Assembly (NCBI GenBank): GCA_950295325.1 | Contig: OX485803.1 | Coordinates: 20,520,001-20,584,000 of the forward strand | DNA from: Polytrichum commune | Taxonomy: Eukaryota > Streptophyta > Polytrichopsida > Polytrichales > Polytrichaceae | DNA: 64,000 nt | Direction of reading: 5' to 3' | Shown: piece by piece, positions 44,056 to 63,562 of the stretch | Numbering within the stretch: position 1 is the first letter of the stretch | How the letters are laid out: each line of letters starts with the position of its first letter | Translations under genes and position numbers: made by a program | Notes under the pieces: model-generated | What the model was told of the DNA's origin: nothing | Seen by the model: the letters and a program-made list of their open reading frames with translations, nothing else | Databases searched by the model: none

Positions 44056-44642
44056 GGGCCGGTTCACATTATGGCCGTCCAAGTCGAGAGGCCGTGGGAT
44101 TGAGTGGCCAAACTTTGTTGAGAGTCCAAAGAAATGAGCTGAAAATAGTCAATAACATATAGTAAGTGGAGCCTTTGGCCGGGCATAGTGTGAAGCCTCC
44201 AAAGGCTAAGCCCAAAGTCCTAACCTTTGGCCATGAACTCTCACGGCCTCTCGACTTGGACGGCCATAGTGTGAAGCCTCCAAAGGCCGAGCCCAAAGTC
44301 CAAACCCAAAGGAGCATCCCACTTTATTCCTTGCTCAAAATAACCCCTCCAATCTAATGGTCAAGATCTTGTCAATGATTGATATTTTAATGAAAAAAAA
44401 GTTCGGCCTCTCGACGGAAGTTTGGGTCGAGCATTTTGCTCGACCCAAACTTTGCTCGAGAGGCCGAACTCTTGGCGCCATAACTTCCTAAAAGTGCTGC
44501 CACCTAGGCTCTTTTGGAGGCGATGTCCTTTGGACTTCGGCCTCTAGTGTGAAGGCCGAGAGGACAGACTTTGAACATTTATGCATTTTCATTGGTCCAA
44601 ACGCTTCTCCTCTCGAAGTTTAGCCATAGTGTGAACCGGCCC
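44056..44642. mobile_element. TIR element (587 bp) with internal palindromes
   Basis: The ends GGGCCGGTTCACATTATGG and CCATAGTGTGAACCGGCCC are inverted repeats. The flanks are TAC (left) and TAA (right), a TSD with one mismatch. Inside are a second inverted pair (gtccaagtcgagaggccgt at 44078 and its reverse at 44241) and a strong hairpin at 44402-44469. It directly abuts the REV7-bearing unit. Confidence 0.7.
44402..44469. repeat. Strong hairpin inside the TIR element
   Basis: Outer arms TTCGGCCTCTCGA/TCGAGAGGCCGAA enclose perfect inner arms GTTTGGGTCGAGCA/TGCTCGACCCAAAC around a TT centre. Confidence 0.85.
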
Positions 44643-45901
44643 TAAGGGCCGCTTTACACCTAGAGGCCGGGCCAATTCCCCTTGAGGCTGATTGCATGAA
44701 ATTTTAGCCTCTTTTGGGTTGAAGGCCGGCCCCAACTACACATTATAATAAAATTATAATGGGGTCAATTTTCCCATATGTGAAGGCTGTAGGGCTAAGA
44801 AGCTAGGCCGATTCAATAAATCTAGCATAATCCAACGGATCTAGCATAATCTAGCATAGAGCCATTCAAATTTCCACATAATCCAATGGATAAGGTTCGT
44901 TCAAAAAATCACATTTTATTTTTAAAAAAATATTTTGTATTGAGATTTGACATTGGCCCACCATTTTGGGTGCACCCAATTCAATGAGCTCGGATCGTGT
45001 CATACCATGCATTTTTTGATTAAAACGAGCCGCTAGGGGCCAAAGGCCCACCGCTGGTGGGAGAAGAAGTCCGTAAGGAAGTTGGCAAAGCAGAGAGTTT
45101 GTTTGGGTAATAGGTATTGATGCTTACACCAAAAAAATCATCAAAACAACTACAAAACAATATGGAATTGTTTCACCTTTGTTCTTGGTATTGAAATCTG
45201 GCCCACACAATGCTATCTGGCAAACCCTGTTATTGCAATAATCTTTCATTAGCCTTCTGAATTTCAGATACAATGAGAATGTACACGAGGCGTCTTATCT
45301 TTGTGTACATAGGTTGCCAACTGCGAAATAAAGATAGGATACAAGACCTCCAAATTAACCCAAATATACATAATTAAAGCAATTGAGTAGCAGAAGCAAA
45401 GTATACATCAGCTTCAACAAAACAATTGGTCCCAGCAAGCTAAAAAATTCATAACTACACTATGGTTTCTAGTCTTCAGATTTGTATCTCAAAAGCAAAT
45501 GCCAATAAACCATTTTCTTGCCATGATTGCTCCCAACTCCACCTAGAACATATGTAGGAAATCAAAGACACGCTTCACACAAAAATTAAGATTAACCACA
45601 TAAAAATTTGACACGAAGCCATGAAAGACTGTTCCATGGAAGTATATGGTGTGATGGAGTTGTATGAAGATTATCCAATGTTTTGGGAAAGATCTATGCA
45701 CCACTCTTGACAAAGTATATATGTGTGCGTGTGTGTGTGCGCGCGTGCGTGCATGGGCATATATATGCATATTACTATAGCCGTACAGTATCTATAGTTA
45801 TACCTGTACAACTTAAATCCCCAATATGTAAGTACTTGCCTGATATTTATCTACAGGATCATAGATAACTTTAATGTAGTGATCCAAGATATCCATTGAC
45901 A

Positions 45902-46438
45902 CACGGGTAGATCACTCTAAGGCATTTTTGTGCACCACGTGCGGCTAGGGGTTTTTTGTTTTGGGGCTATTTACCTTCAAGGGATGAAATAAAGCCTCCC
46001 TATAATTACTTAAACTTCAAAAATGGCCCATTTGTTTGCACCCTTCCATTACTTTTATTGTCTAAGTCATTGTAATTTTTTGTACTCTATATTTCTTTTA
46101 AGTAATAAAAGCTAATCTACTTCCTAACGCAATTGACGAGTGTTGAGGGAAAGCATGGAAACAAAGAAGGGTGCAAACATCCCCATGAGTCCTAAACCCA
46201 TTTACATACCATACTAAACATGCCTTCTAGGATCCTTATCTTTAGCCCCTATATTAATTTTACAAAAAATAATGGCCCACGTTTTATGTTCATCCAACTT
46301 ACTTATAATGGGATTGTCTACATTTAATGGCCCCTTCATTATTTGGAATTCCTTTATAATTTTTATTTCAAATGATTTTAATCCTCTCTATATTATGCCA
46401 CACGTCATTTTTAAAATACACTAAGTGATCTACCCGTG
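45902..46438. mobile_element. hAT MITE, family CACGGGTAG (537 bp)
   Basis: The TIR CACGGGTAGATCACT pairs with AGTGATCTACCCGTG. The 8-bp TSD cattgaca lies at 45894-45901 and 46439-46446. It is nested in the REV7 unit. Its left terminus recurs at 16667-16697. A (GT)n-rich tract lies upstream at 45721-45752. Confidence 0.88.
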
Positions 46439-46469
46439 CATTGACATAGTTGGCAACCGATGGACGGCA

Positions 46470-46600
46470 TGAGGTCCAACATTTATCATACTGTAGGGTG
46501 GCGGGCAGTAAAAAGATCAGTTTCAGGAGGCCACGAGGTTTTTGGCCAGCTGCCCGTTGCTAGCAAGGCCACTGCACCCCATTCTCAATAAATGTTGGAT
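46470..46600. mobile_element. Small foldback element
   Basis: The arms tccaacatttat (46472) and ataaatgttgga (46586) are inverted, with further pairing of gggtg/caccc and gggcag/ctgccc inside. No TSD was resolved. Confidence 0.45.
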
Positions 46601-46679
46601 GACAAACAAACGCTCTTACTAAGATCTGTGCATCCTTTAGTGGTCACACTTGATATTACTTTGGCCATTATACATCCAG

Positions 46680-47045
46680 TGTTCCAAGATTGAAGTCTTC
46701 AATGCCCTTCAAACACGATTTGGCCTTCAAAATATACCTCTTTCAAAACAACCCCAAATTGGAAATGAAGACGTCACTTGAAGTCTTCATTATAATATGT
46801 CTGCCACAAGAACCAACAAGCATAGGGCATTGTCACTACAAGAAGTAGAGTTAGATGGTTGATTCTTAATTCTTTACATTGTAGTGGAAACATGTACCAT
46901 ATAATTCATGCACAAGTTTAATTTGAGTTTTGTATTTCATTTCTATGTTCTTGAATTGCCGTCTTGGATTTGAACCCTTGAACTGAAGAGTGAAATATGA
47001 GATCCCTTCAAAATGAAATTCATATGAGGGCTTCAATCTTGAACA
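46680..47045. mobile_element. MITE-like inverted-repeat element
   Basis: The left end tgttccaagattgaag and right end cttcaatcttgaaca are inverted copies. Inner blocks (cccttca, gaagtcttca) also pair. No TSD found. Confidence 0.45.
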
Positions 47046-47338
47046 TTATATAGATCCCCACATCACTTAGCAAAGAAACAATGATAACTAGACTATCCAC
47101 CATCAACGTTTAAAATGTACAGGGAAAGGGCTTGATGGAGGATAGTCTAGTTATCAACGTTTAAAATGTACCCTTATACCAAATACACATTGTGTTAAAC
47201 TTGGTGGAACTTGTTCCTAATATTGACATAAGGGACTCTTCTAAGTACTGCTGCATTATTATTCTTGCAGTATGGTGATGACAAAAGAAACCACCTTGCG
47301 ATTCTCATTACTGTCCTTGAATGTGAAAGAGTACTCAC
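47046..47338. other. Local duplication and hairpin beside the CDC5 exon
   Basis: The word atcaacgtttaaaatgtac occurs at 47102 and 47153. Between them, taactagactatcc (47085) and ggatagtctagtta (47141) are inverted. No coding content. Confidence 0.45.
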
Positions 47339-47539
47339 CTCTGCCTCCATCATGATTGCATCTCCTTTGAGACCAAGAGTTTGTTGAGAAGTTGGCAATG
47401 GAGTCATCCCAAGCGGAGTTCGAGAGTAGTTGGAGAGCAATGCTCGGGTTACACCACTGTCCTCCTCTGGTCTAGCTTCACCAACAATAAAATCTCTAGC
47501 GTAACCCCTCTTTGCAATCTCTTCTACCAGACTTCGGAG
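47339..47539 (-). pseudogene. Isolated CDC5/CDC5L-like exon (67 codons)
   Basis: The minus strand reads LRSLVEEIAKRGYARDFIVG, then SGVTRALLSNYSRTP-LGMTP and KGDAIMMEAE. This matches the segment of plant CDC5 (MYB-related NineTeen-complex splicing factor) that follows its HELEEIAK-like block and ends at DAIMMEAE. It is bounded by a plausible acceptor (GGACAG) and a consensus donor (GTGAGT), so it looks like one whole exon. The next expected CDC5 block (N-LARLRESQTPL type) is absent downstream, and no other CDC5 exon is seen. I read it as a captured gene fragment inside the TIR unit. The reading frame is intact and could be spliced into a chimeric transcript with REV7. Confidence 0.72.
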
Positions 47540-48199
47540 CTGTCCAAAAGAGTCTCTTCTTAAACCCTAACCTTACTATGGCCTCAAGAGTTTCTTCTTG
47601 AGTGGCGAAGGAAAGGTTCTATGATCTATGAAGGATGTACATTTCTGGCCCATAAGTATATAGCATTTTTTCTAGATTGAAAACGGTAAAGGGCTTGATG
47701 GAGTCATCGTCTTTGAACTAGGCAACAGAGAAGGGCTACACAAATAAGTGCGGCCGAATTGAGGTTCTTCAAAGCCTTTGATTGAAAGATTTGCAACTCT
47801 CTATTATAGGCAGTATTAGAACACATCATTCTGCAAAATTTACAGTTGCATAATGAGTTTTTAGATTACTTTTGTACCAAAATTTGGGTGATTTAAGTGT
47901 TCAAATGGAATCGTTTTTTGCATGTTGCCATTGTCATGTTGCCTTGCTGAGCTATTCTGTTGCAAATAGCAATTGCTCTTTGTGGTAACCACACACACTA
48001 TGTATGTCAACACATTCAAGTTGATGGATGCCTGAAATATTCTCACAATTTTTGGTCCTATATACACTTATACTAGTAGTCATTACGATTTCTGTCCTTT
48101 AGGTGTCTAGTGAGGACCAGACGATCTATTAATATGGCATGTTGATAGGCCACCCACATTCCAGAAACAGATTTCATTCACATTGTCTTGGTCCTCTTT

Positions 48200-50015
48200 T
48201 CAGTTTCTATTTGATGGTTCTTCAACAGGATGCTCAACATACAACTGCAAGTCCAAAATCTCACTTTGCATTGACTTGATGGTTGAGATTGTGAAACCCT
48301 GATGCCATCCTTCGCTATCAGCTGGTATCCAGAACTGCCCTTTGTTGGTAATGTCTGTGGAGAGTTCTTTCATGTACGCAACAAGCTCCCAGGAACAATC
48401 TGCCACAAGTTTGTAAGTAGGATCTATCAGATTCAGCTAGTAGTCAACAAATCACTTCCCCCATTCAACATCAGCAAAGCAGTAGACCACATGAGTCTCA
48501 CATGATCGTCATAGCACATAATACCCTTGTAAGTGTCAAGGTTAGGACAACAGTTACAGATAGAGGTAACCAGTAAACCATGAAAAAAGGCGCAAGGCTT
48601 TTGGAGTGTTAAGGTCCAGTAAATACTGTGAATGAGCCGAAGACATGAATCCAAAGTAGGGAATACAGACCCGACACTATAACAAAGAAGGCCTCAGATA
48701 TGCAATACTCTGCCACAGCGGGTGTGTACAAGTATGGTGGGTGCACAGTTCGAGTAGTCTCTCCAGACGGCCACTTCCTTAGCCAAAAACTGGCTTAGCT
48801 CAGACTGTCTCAAATCTAAAGTGTTCGATTCGAAGCTGCCCCCAGGCAGAGAGTTCCTCTGTTGACCTATCTATCAAAACTTTATCTTATCTTAACTTGA
48901 ATCCTTTGAAAGGAAGGTCTTTGGAGAAACTGGTAAAAATGTCTTCCCTATTAAAATTACTAAACTACCTGGTTAACATAGAGGTACATGAATCAAAGTG
49001 ATAGCACATAATCATGGAAAACAAATAAATAATAATGGTGATTGAAGCTTTAAGATGGTGCTATTATACCAGAGGGTATGGAAGGCGAGAGCAATGGGCT
49101 GCAGACAGACAGTTTGAGCAGGAAGCCTCGCAGGGCAAATTCAAGATGTTGTGCTGGCACGCCTGCCTTTGAAAGCTGCTTCAGGGATACCTTGAACACA
49201 CAATTCTCTACGGGTATGTGATTGGAATCTGTAACCAGAAGGGCAACCTTCTCCACAACACCCTGTCCAAGACATGGCATTAGTATCATCACTGCTCATT
49301 TAAATTGGTGACCTTCAAGTGCGGAATGCAAATAGAAGCAACAAAGGCGACCTGAATGTGAACCCTAGCCGTCTCGTAACGAGCTACGAGATTATTTTTC
49401 ACAGAACATCAGCAATTTGCAGGATAAAAAGAAGAATGATGACGTACTTGCTGGATGTGGGAGTGAAGGTTTGTAACGGCGGAATGGATGTACTCCCTCA
49501 GATCCGGGTGACGAGCCCACTGCACCGGAACATTGAAGTGCCGTTGCCTTTCGAAAGTTTCTACACAGAGTCACGCATGGATCTGAGCACAATTCGCTAC
49601 ACAACTCCTCCTACCCGTACTTTCTACAATAGAAGAAAACAATGCACATCACTCAGTTGGATCGCAGGCAACTGTTTAAAGGTTCTACATAAGCCGTTTC
49701 CAATGTCACCCCGTGTCTATGGAAAATTTCCTGACTAGGAAAGAGACAACAAACTTTGACCCACAATCGTCAAGCGAGAGAAGATACCTGGAGAATTAAG
49801 CTCTCTGATGCACAACAACTGATGAATGACGACCTCCAGACATTCGCAAACAAGCCCTGCAACTTCTCCTGCAACTCACCACCGAAAGCTGAATGATTGA
49901 ATACCGAATAGTTGTGGGATCTCCACAATCCAGATTGAAATGCCTAAAAGCTCAAGAAACCCAACATGATTTGTTGGCACCCCGTACCTGGTTCAGAGAG
50001 ACGAACAACCTCCAT
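48200..50015 (-). CDS. REV7: REV7/MAD2L2 (HORMA subunit of DNA polymerase zeta), five exons
   Basis: Exons on the minus strand are 50015-49988, 49868-49788, 49560-49448, 49262-49070 and 48399-48200. All four introns (119, 227, 185 and 670 bp) have GT-AG ends, and the join gives 615 nt, or 204 residues, close to plant REV7. Motifs in order: GEVAGLVCECLEVVIHQLL (residues 10-28), the FERQRHFNVPVQWARHPDL-REYI block (38-60), VVEKVALLV and VENCVFKVS, LEFALRGFLLKLSV, CSWELVAYM, then the C-terminal safety-belt part with FWIPADSEGW, IKSMQSE and LQLYVEHP. REV7 links REV3 and REV1 in translesion synthesis and acts in the nucleus. The start was chosen because it joins in phase and aligns with the family N-terminus. 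The frame stays open for some way upstream of it, with no in-frame ATG in the part I read (about 40 bases). No lesion is visible. The gene lies inside a TIR/TAA-bounded unit together with a CDC5 exon, so it may be a transposed copy. Confidence 0.9.
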
Positions 50016-50838
50016 TTGTCCTCTACCGGAATTGTGCTCCCCGATACAGACCCGGGTGAATCGCCCTGCATTTAGATCATCCCAAAACCCTAAACCCTAC
50101 TTTCCATTATACCACCCGACACGCAATTTTGAGTGAATAGAGTACAATGAAAATGGGTTTCATATCCTGGAACGATGACAAAGATAGGAGAACTCTGAAA
50201 CTCCACGAATTGTAGCAATGTGCATTTTTTTTGTCGTGGGATCAAGAGACAAGAGGCCCATAACCCTAATTTACTTCATTCCACAACGATGAGGGAATTT
50301 CAAATCAACACACTATCTCTTTCCAGTTTATTTCCTCTGCTCCTGGTACATTTATATTCAGTCCGCAGGTCATGCGAAGAACACAAGGAGCCCGCAAGGT
50401 AAACATAAATGTATCAAAGTTCATCGTCAATTGATCGCAGAAACGCAGCAGCGGCAGCAGCAACAAAGAAGAGGGAAAACAAAGAAGAGAATCGGCAAAG
50501 AAATCGTAATCGGGAAGGTGAAGAGAGTGAGTGTATGTCTTCTCTGTCTGTCTGTCTGCACACACAGTGGTGGTGGCAGGAACGGAGGAGATCAGGGGAG
50601 GAGGGTTACATCGGTCAAATCCGACGGTCGAGAAAGCACAGGCAACGTGGTTTCACCAGAAGCCAGAAGCTGCTTTCATCGCCCATAGACTTCTTCTCGA
50701 AAATTCATACCACCAAATCGATCCGGCCTCTAGGTGTAAAGGAGTTGGAGCTGATTTGAGGCTTTTGGCCTATCACAAGTGAGAATTTCAAACCTCTTAC
50801 ACAACGAATTGGCCCGGCATCTAGGTGTAAAGCGGCCC
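50016..50838. promoter_or_regulatory. REV7 upstream region up to the right TIR
   Basis: This is the likely promoter and 5' UTR of REV7. It holds a short telomere-like run (ccctaaaccctac near 50089), a plant telo-box-like motif often found near start sites of DNA-metabolism genes, and a CAG-rich stretch (50445-50465). The telo-box role is inference. Confidence 0.35.
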
Positions 50839-51255
50839 TAAGTTCATCGATGCACAAAACGTTTCATCAGCCCAAATGGCATTTGATGTCTCGGTCACCT
50901 ATCATTTGCCATTATCGTGGCAAACCATGCCACAAAATCCCTCAGATTGCCAAAAGAAAAAAAGCGATATGGAGAATTCAAAGTCACATGTTCATTCTTT
51001 CTTTCATATTGGATGACACATTCGAATGATTTCAACTAGTGTGCTCCCTCCACCATCCATTTACAAAGCCTGGTATTTGTTCTCATGTGCGAGTCAACAC
51101 ATGTCACCGATAGAAATTTGAATGCAACAATTGCAAACAACCGATACAATGTAAACGTAAGCCACAATGAAATGCACAAAGAGTGTTGGTACTTGAAAGA
51201 TGGCACCATTGTCACGATGGAAGGTGCTAGAAAGAAATTGGCGCAATTTAAAAGC

Positions 51256-62973: not shown

Positions 62974-63559
62974 GGGGTGTTTTACACCATGGACCATGAA
63001 GTCGTCCCAAGGCCCTGTAAAATTTGTGATTGGTTGTTGAACTCGTCCCGGGACCACTTCGATTGCCACCAAGGAAAAAGTGTCAGAGTGATTGTGAAGT
63101 TCGAGGTCCCCAAAAGACATGTTTTAAGGCCTACACTATCCACTAACATGATCCAATGGATTTTGCAATGGGAGAGGCAAAAGAGGTGGTCTAGTAAAAA
63201 AAAGACAAGGGCCCATGGCCAAGAAATATTGTTATCGTAACTTATTAATGATTTTTTTGGGGGGAAGAGAAGACGAAGACAAGAGGAGACAAAAGAATGG
63301 TCAAACTTGAATTTTATTTTTATTTTTTTCAAAACTGTCCTTTTTGAACACATATTAGAAAAAATCAACACATTCACTTTTTGGTGCATGGTTGGTCCTC
63401 TTGATTCACATTCAGTTTACACCTAGTGAAGTGCCCAGAAGCTTTTTGTAAAACGGTTTTTTAAGAAATTAGACCATGAAAGTTGAACCATGAAGTCGGA
63501 CCATGGAGAAAGACCATCTTCCATAGTCCGACTTCACGATCCATGGTGTAAAGCGGCCT
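62974..63559. mobile_element. TIR element (586 bp), TTTACACC family, abutting the previous one
   Basis: The left end GGGGTGTTTTACACCATGG and right end CCATGGTGTAAAGCGGCCT are inverted. TAA lies at 62971-62973 and 63560-63562. The GGTGTAAAGCGGCC end is the same terminus as that of the 6.2-kb REV7 unit. Confidence 0.75.
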
Positions 63560-63562
63560 TAA

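Follow-up and report, generated by a model that had tools for sequence, protein, structure and literature searches.

REV7 and a piece of CDC5 in a Helitron2/Helentron-like element nested within a Tourist-like transposon of Polytrichum commune

A stretch of 64,000 nucleotides from Polytrichum commune (contig OX485803.1; G000:C1:20520001-20584000, hereafter the window) contains a five-exon REV7 gene and a piece of CDC5 between inverted termini that lie 6.2 kb apart. The locus raises the question of which transposon captured these two unrelated host genes. An earlier interpretation made from the letters of the window (the sequence-only reading) proposed a single Pack-type unit delimited by terminal inverted repeats (TIRs). 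We searched the genome (408 Mb, 64 contigs); coordinates without a prefix are window positions. The locus very probably consists of three nested elements: a Tourist-like miniature inverted-repeat transposable element (MITE) at 44646-50838, a Helitron2/Helentron-like element inside it at 45026-50699, and a hAT-like MITE inside the latter at 45902-46438. The features on which this explanation depends first are as follows, with a caret marking the border of the element and ATIR standing for asymmetric terminal inverted repeat.

44646-45025, plus strand: left part of the host MITE, TIR GGGCCGCTTTACACC..., preceded by TAA at 44643-44645
50700-50838, plus strand: right part of the same MITE, followed by TAA at 50839-50841
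45026-50699, minus strand: Helitron2/Helentron-like element with REV7 and the CDC5 piece; same ends, different flanks at other loci
50662-50699, minus strand: 5' end of the element, T^CGAGAAGAAGTCTATGGGCG..., with 5'-ATIR GAGAAGAAGTC; 411 genome matches with up to three mismatches
45026-45072, minus strand: 3' end of the element, 3'-ATIR GACTTCTTCTC, hairpin and ...GGCTCG^T; 75 genome matches with up to three mismatches

The inverted termini themselves are as the sequence-only reading described them: 44646-44678 and 50806-50838 differ at one of 33 bases, with TAA outside both. The inverted arms reach 37 nt at 95%, and a 25-nt core of the end matches twice in the window versus never in 100 shuffles. 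That reading suggested searching the genome for the terminus paired at about 6 kb. The single 33-bp end, with up to three mismatches, has 1,300 matches (646 forward and 654 reverse). Intact two-ended copies measure 516-597 bp; the TIRs belong to a short MITE. We fetched 11 MITE loci for comparison (L001-L011). In nine of them (L001-L007, L009 and L011), 384-408 bp of the left part align at 78-90%, ending at 45016-45025; the same copies match the right part over 136-148 bp, beginning at 50699-50702, where the left part ends. Of the two remaining loci, L010 aligns in part only and L008 over 65 bp. The two parts (44643-45025 and 50700-50842) thus meet the insert at one internal point, an A-tract of the MITE, within a few bases, and we conclude that a single MITE lies here, interrupted by 5,674 bp. 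The 3-bp flanks match in seven of eight two-ended copies (TAA in three, TTA in three, TCA in one) and are TAA on both sides of the window copy; those of L005 differ (GTA/TTA). Its short TIRs and 3-bp TWA duplication identify the outer element, on sequence grounds, as a PIF/Harbinger Tourist-like MITE. Directly abutting it, 44400-44643 contains inverted repeats and the end motif AGGGCCGGTTCACAC of another MITE-like element, with the TAA in common. The MITE end motif recurs, at one mismatch, near the right window edge (63546-63560).

Subtracting the inner MITE (537 bp) and a single copy of its 8-bp duplication leaves an insert of 5,129 bp, which has ends of its own. Read on its own strand, the minus strand of the window, it begins T^CGAGAAGAAGTC and ends GACTTCTTCTC-CCACCAGCGGTGG...GGCTCG^T. 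The 11-bp ATIR GAGAAGAAGTC lies 1 bp inside the 5' border, which agrees with the 8-15 bp, placed 0-2 bp from the border, expected of such repeats. Its 3' counterpart is exact, lies 35 bp from the 3' border and is followed by a predicted 6-bp hairpin (CCCACC-AGC-GGTGGG). Scoring the best 40 of 3279 candidates, we identified copies of the insert, in pieces at 92-99% identity, at six or more further loci (at least C6:17.04, C6:9.77, C5:22.06, C4:1.67, C1:27.77 and C5:45.18 Mb). The 3' end is present at all seven loci including the window, and the 5' end in five copies (window, L012, L013, L015 and L016). The C4:1.67 Mb copy is rearranged, and those at C1:27.77 and C5:45.18 Mb are interrupted by ~5.6 kb and ~14 kb, respectively.

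At the borders inspected, the element begins CGAG (TGAG once) and finishes CTCG, and the adjoining flank base is A at 10 of 10 left and 5 of 5 right borders. All 75 matches to the 3' end are followed by T, and 70 of them by TT (the search pattern held TTT but left the third base open, and that base did vary), and T precedes every 5' end among the matches listed of the 411. The insertion point in the window lies between two A of the MITE A-tract, which is T^T on the element strand. The 60-nt flanks vary between the insert loci, and those of the other six copies are not the outer MITE. Given these ends of its own and the six other loci in different flanks, a Helitron-type element captured the genes, and not a TIR unit. 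Capture of two unrelated host genes by one transposon, as the sequence-only reading proposed, therefore stands, with a Helitron-like captor in place of the TIR unit. The count of 411 matches for the 5' end against 75 for the 3' end was obtained with patterns of unequal length and gives a rough ratio; many relatives may have different 3' ends.

These junctions and copies also bear on the two explanations that take the outer TIRs at face value. A Pack-type TIR element that itself acquired REV7 and CDC5 and mobilises both together would account for termini with one mismatch in 33 bases and TAA on both sides. It is highly improbable, given that the insert has constant ends of its own at six loci flanked by something other than the MITE, and that the MITE without the insert is a high-copy element of 516-597 bp. 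The other proposal, a resident REV7 flanked by two independent MITE ends, draws on the commonness of the TIR, with its 1,300 matches. The flanking pieces nevertheless sum to one MITE with no overlap or gap beyond the A-tract, so that the two ends are parts of a single split MITE, neither having a complete one of its own; moreover, REV7 lies at seven Helitron loci and at one locus that lacks Helitron ends. We regard this as the least credible of the explanations considered here.

The insertion of a Helitron2/Helentron-like element is thus the explanation we retain, and its class can be examined further. We ruled out a canonical Helitron1 (3' CTRR, A^T insertion) because the element ends ...GGCTCG^T with T on both sides. 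Helitron-5_SMo is presumably an element of Selaginella. It is named in a passage of PMC3627910. Portions of that paper, of PMC5148889 and of PMC4067079 describe for Helitron2/Helentron elements an ATIR, a 3' hairpin and a TT target, and the ends of the element fit this pattern. The distance of the 3'-ATIR from the 3' end is given as 20-30 bp in an excerpt of one paper and as 20-40 bp in that of another. The shared features are a short ATIR at the 5' border and in subterminal position at the 3' end, an adjoining 3' hairpin, the TT target, relatives that encode Rep and a helicase (Rep/Hel), and gene capture. A section of PMC4067079 further indicates that the number of T at Helentron borders varies, which is comparable to the 4+4 A found here.

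Relatives with Rep/Hel sequences are present in the genome. Of 34 genome matches to PF14214, four (C1:7756900, C3:53033430, C3:5799135 and C6:32893172) are followed, on their own strand and at a distance of no more than 12 kb, by the 3' end of the element, as compared by hand. Upstream of the 3' end, the C1:7.76 Mb relative has PF14214 (Helitron_like_N, 5.5e-23) and PIF1 (1.8e-19). The relative at C3:53.03 Mb spans ~11.6 kb and has both ends recognisable (its 5' ATIR is altered), PF14214 at 2.3e-16, broken Rep/Hel frames and a CDC5 piece behind the helicase. An intact Rep/Hel gene was not established among the relatives examined. By eye, two relatives share a predicted protein (L029 6484-7412 and L034 1048-2034) that is possibly accessory or the product of another captured gene; two L034 frames of it have no Pfam match.

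Several observations weigh against this placement and should be considered with it. The predicted fold of the 60-nt 3' end is no more stable than shuffles (z -0.42). A 5' hairpin involving the ATIR belongs to the definition of Helitron2; here it is not clear, with three predicted pairs only in the ATIR region (z -0.14). The element-strand 5' flank is TTTT in the window and TTAT or TTGT at four other right borders inspected. A 2-bp duplication at the window insertion is possible, because the A-tract has 4+4 A compared with mostly 5-7 in uninterrupted MITE copies. No 5' end turned up in the stretches fetched around the Rep/Hel sequences at C1:7.76 and C3:5.80 Mb. The Helitron2 target reported, as in Chlamydomonas, in the literature portions cited above is TTTT^T/C; the target here fits the TT of Helentrons and not insertion after TTTT. 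No endonuclease family, which Helentrons have fused to Rep/Hel, was detected in ten frames of two relatives, whose frames are broken and were scanned in part. Because of the last two points, our placement stops at Helitron2/Helentron-like, short of a subgroup.

The REV7 part of the element comprises the whole gene, ~430 bp upstream of the ATG and 273 bp downstream of the stop:

47927-50443, minus strand: captured REV7 segment; nothing else in the element matches L020, the likely parental locus
49988-50015, minus strand: REV7 exon 1
49788-49868, minus strand: REV7 exon 2, with F19C, Y34N and P35S in the window copy
49448-49560, minus strand: REV7 exon 3, with R42Q in the window copy
49070-49262, minus strand: REV7 exon 4, with F95C in the window copy
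48200-48399, minus strand: REV7 exon 5 and stop

The five-exon structure given by the sequence-only reading is borne out. The exons encode a 204-aa open frame with GT/AG at four of four introns, and the best PDB match of the product is a MAD2B (REV7) chain (E 7.3e-30), which we take to be the human protein. A VLVHTR-like stretch near 48750 was rejected as an exon because exon 4 joins exon 5 directly in a consistent phase and the alignment of the product with MAD2B extends to the C-terminus. Neither the window REV7 nor the CDC5 piece matches a Pfam family at E 0.1, and none of the six genome matches to PF02301 (HORMA) lies at the REV7 exons found here.

The second REV7 locus that the sequence-only reading suggested looking for exists. 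A protein search of the genome yielded 30 matched stretches, 29 of them at the seven Helitron loci (the window and six others) and at L020 (C7:35.2 Mb). The thirtieth, at C5:5017029-5017136, is a weak exon-2-like remnant with two stops (67% over 36 residues). L020 has no Helitron end and no CDC5 piece within the 9 kb that were fetched, and we consider it the likely donor of REV7. All six Helitron copies that span 48812 have a common 14-bp gap relative to L020, suggesting a single capture of REV7 before amplification. Upstream of the gene, L020 has two copies of a 182-bp stretch (at ~2278-2805 of the locus as fetched), of which the window copy has one.

To the sequence-only reading, the window REV7 still looked functional. 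All REV7 exons are unbroken in the window, L012 and L014. They are also unbroken at C1:27.77 Mb, where ~5.6 kb is inserted in intron 4. The gene is frameshifted in L013 (19-bp deletion) and L015 (1-bp insertion), and exons 1-4 were not found at C5:45.18 Mb. We counted changes against the consensus of the REV7 copies in eight rows, using the alignment columns that have a base in the window and at least six letters; the L013 and L015 indels were not counted as changes, L018 was represented by exon 5 only and L020 by its longest match only (47927-50306). L020 has two coding changes in 615 and 36 noncoding changes in 1765 (p 0.0022, uncorrected for the eight rows compared), and is the only row with a coding rate significantly below the noncoding rate. 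The window copy has five in 615 and 13 in 1776, respectively (p 0.79). Its five coding changes (F19C, Y34N, P35S, R42Q and F95C) all alter amino acids, none being silent, and P35S is common to the window and L015. At all five residues the consensus agrees with the MAD2B row, as it does at 71 of 184 aligned sites (p 0.008). The open frame of so young a copy (<1% change) says little, since it would be expected to be open without selection. The functional appearance of the window copy is thus not upheld, and it is most likely a drifting copy, as judged from its substitutions, and not the working gene.

The counts also bear on an alternative concerning the donor, in which the element is the same, the C7:35.2 Mb locus has itself been moved or truncated, and the working REV7 is among the Helitron copies. 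The open and seemingly conserved frames of L012 (two amino-acid and eight silent changes) and L014 (one and four) would suit it. Against it, L020 lacks Helitron ends and the CDC5 part in the fetched 9 kb, keeps the 14 bp missing in the Helitron copies, and alone of the eight rows has a coding rate significantly lower than its noncoding rate; we therefore hold this alternative to be quite improbable. Parental status of L020 is the likelier reading, with the caveat that structure and constraint were compared within one species. The figures pooled over the Helitron copies (L020 excluded) count against drift in all of them: 19 of 39 changes alter amino acids versus 72% expected (p 0.0019), and 18 of 35 versus 70.5% when each change is counted once (p 0.024). 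The pooled coding rate equals the noncoding rate (p 1.0), and the silent excess is led by L012 and L014. Such an excess runs against simple neutrality, and some other copies may therefore be under selection. We consider it unlikely, though less so than the preceding alternative, that REV7 in L012 (C6:17.04 Mb) and L014 (C5:22.06 Mb) works and is kept by selection, with the window copy as a decaying sister. The silent changes of L012 seem more closely spaced than the noncoding changes of that copy.

The remaining parts of the element are as follows:

47157-47526, minus strand: captured CDC5 piece (truncated exon, donor and part of an intron), 94-95% to L035
47527-47926, minus strand: Helitron-derived stretch, behind the helicase frames in the C3 relative
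46677-47045, strand not assigned: high-copy repeat, in the REV7 element before its spread
45902-46438, strand not assigned: inner 537-bp MITE, TIR CACGGGTAGATCACT, 8-bp duplication CATTGACA, only in the window Helitron copy

The CDC5 exon had been described as cleanly bounded. Instead, the piece corresponds to two stretches of L035 (C7:15.56 Mb), which begin within an exon, cross its donor site (by eye) and reach into the intron; ~154 bp present in L035 are missing. This locus is likely the donor of the piece, and thus the parental CDC5 gene sought since the sequence-only reading. The name CDC5 presumably applies, as it comes from L035 through Myb-like N-terminal exons recognised by eye; PDB gave no CDC5 match. 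The CDC5 peptide has 12 matched stretches in the genome. Besides the C3:53.03 Mb element, the piece occurs at C6:32.89 and C1:37.13 Mb, next to Rep matches as judged by position only. The neighbouring stretch 47527-47926 recurs at 94% at C3:53036665 and C1:37131401 and at 95% at C6:32889991.

The repeat at 46677-47045 has at least 33 further places at 84-89% (best 40 of 1110 candidates scored). It lies inside six of the seven REV7 Helitron copies and was not found in the one at C4:1.67 Mb. The inner MITE has a 15-bp perfect TIR and at least 23 near-full copies elsewhere; its duplication CATTGACA occurs twice in the window and a single time in L012 and L013, where the site is empty. It inserted later than the Helitron. 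From its 8-bp duplication and short TIR we classify it as hAT-like.

We propose that a Rep/helicase-bearing element gained a genomic fragment of CDC5 behind its helicase gene. In a derivative, REV7 with its introns and upstream region would have taken the place of Rep/Hel in the interval that separates the 5' end from the CDC5 part. CDC5 first and REV7 second is the simplest order, because CDC5 is present in both kinds of element and REV7 in one; REV7 was not seen in a Rep/helicase-bearing relative. The REV7 derivative would then have been copied to at least seven loci, probably by rolling-circle transposition, with Rep/Hel acting in trans on the ends, so that copies move and the donor remains in place. 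One such non-autonomous copy would have inserted between two A of the MITE A-tract, and the hAT-like MITE would subsequently have inserted into it.

Maize Helitrons with captured genes are canonical Helitrons. Papers on their captures reportedly involve P450 and cytidine deaminase. According to PMC3288121, maize captures can include an entire gene and pieces are gained stepwise, and the element described here resembles them in both respects. It differs in its Helitron2/Helentron-like ends and in carrying a DNA-repair gene; a complete five-exon host gene also sets it apart from Helitron2/Helentron elements. In a limited literature search we found no paper that joins a Helitron with REV7. Pack-MULE and Pack-TYPE elements hold host gene pieces between transposon ends. 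The arrangement in the window is alike in this respect, whereas the TIRs here are those of a MITE that served as a landing site only. The case is of a known kind, serial capture and amplification by a Helitron2/Helentron-like element, and is a well-resolved new example of it.

Overall, the locus is a multi-copy case, in a land plant, in which an intron-bearing host gene is carried complete, together with its upstream region, by a Helitron2/Helentron-like element. Likely donor loci and junctions are in hand for both captures, together with Rep/Hel-bearing relatives. It illustrates that ordinary elements, when nested, can look like Pack-type capture, and that in a young copy an open frame does not speak for function. 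If some of the Helitron-borne REV7 copies are indeed selected, they would represent extra host REV7. Alternatively, a translesion-synthesis factor may aid an element that passes through single-stranded DNA.

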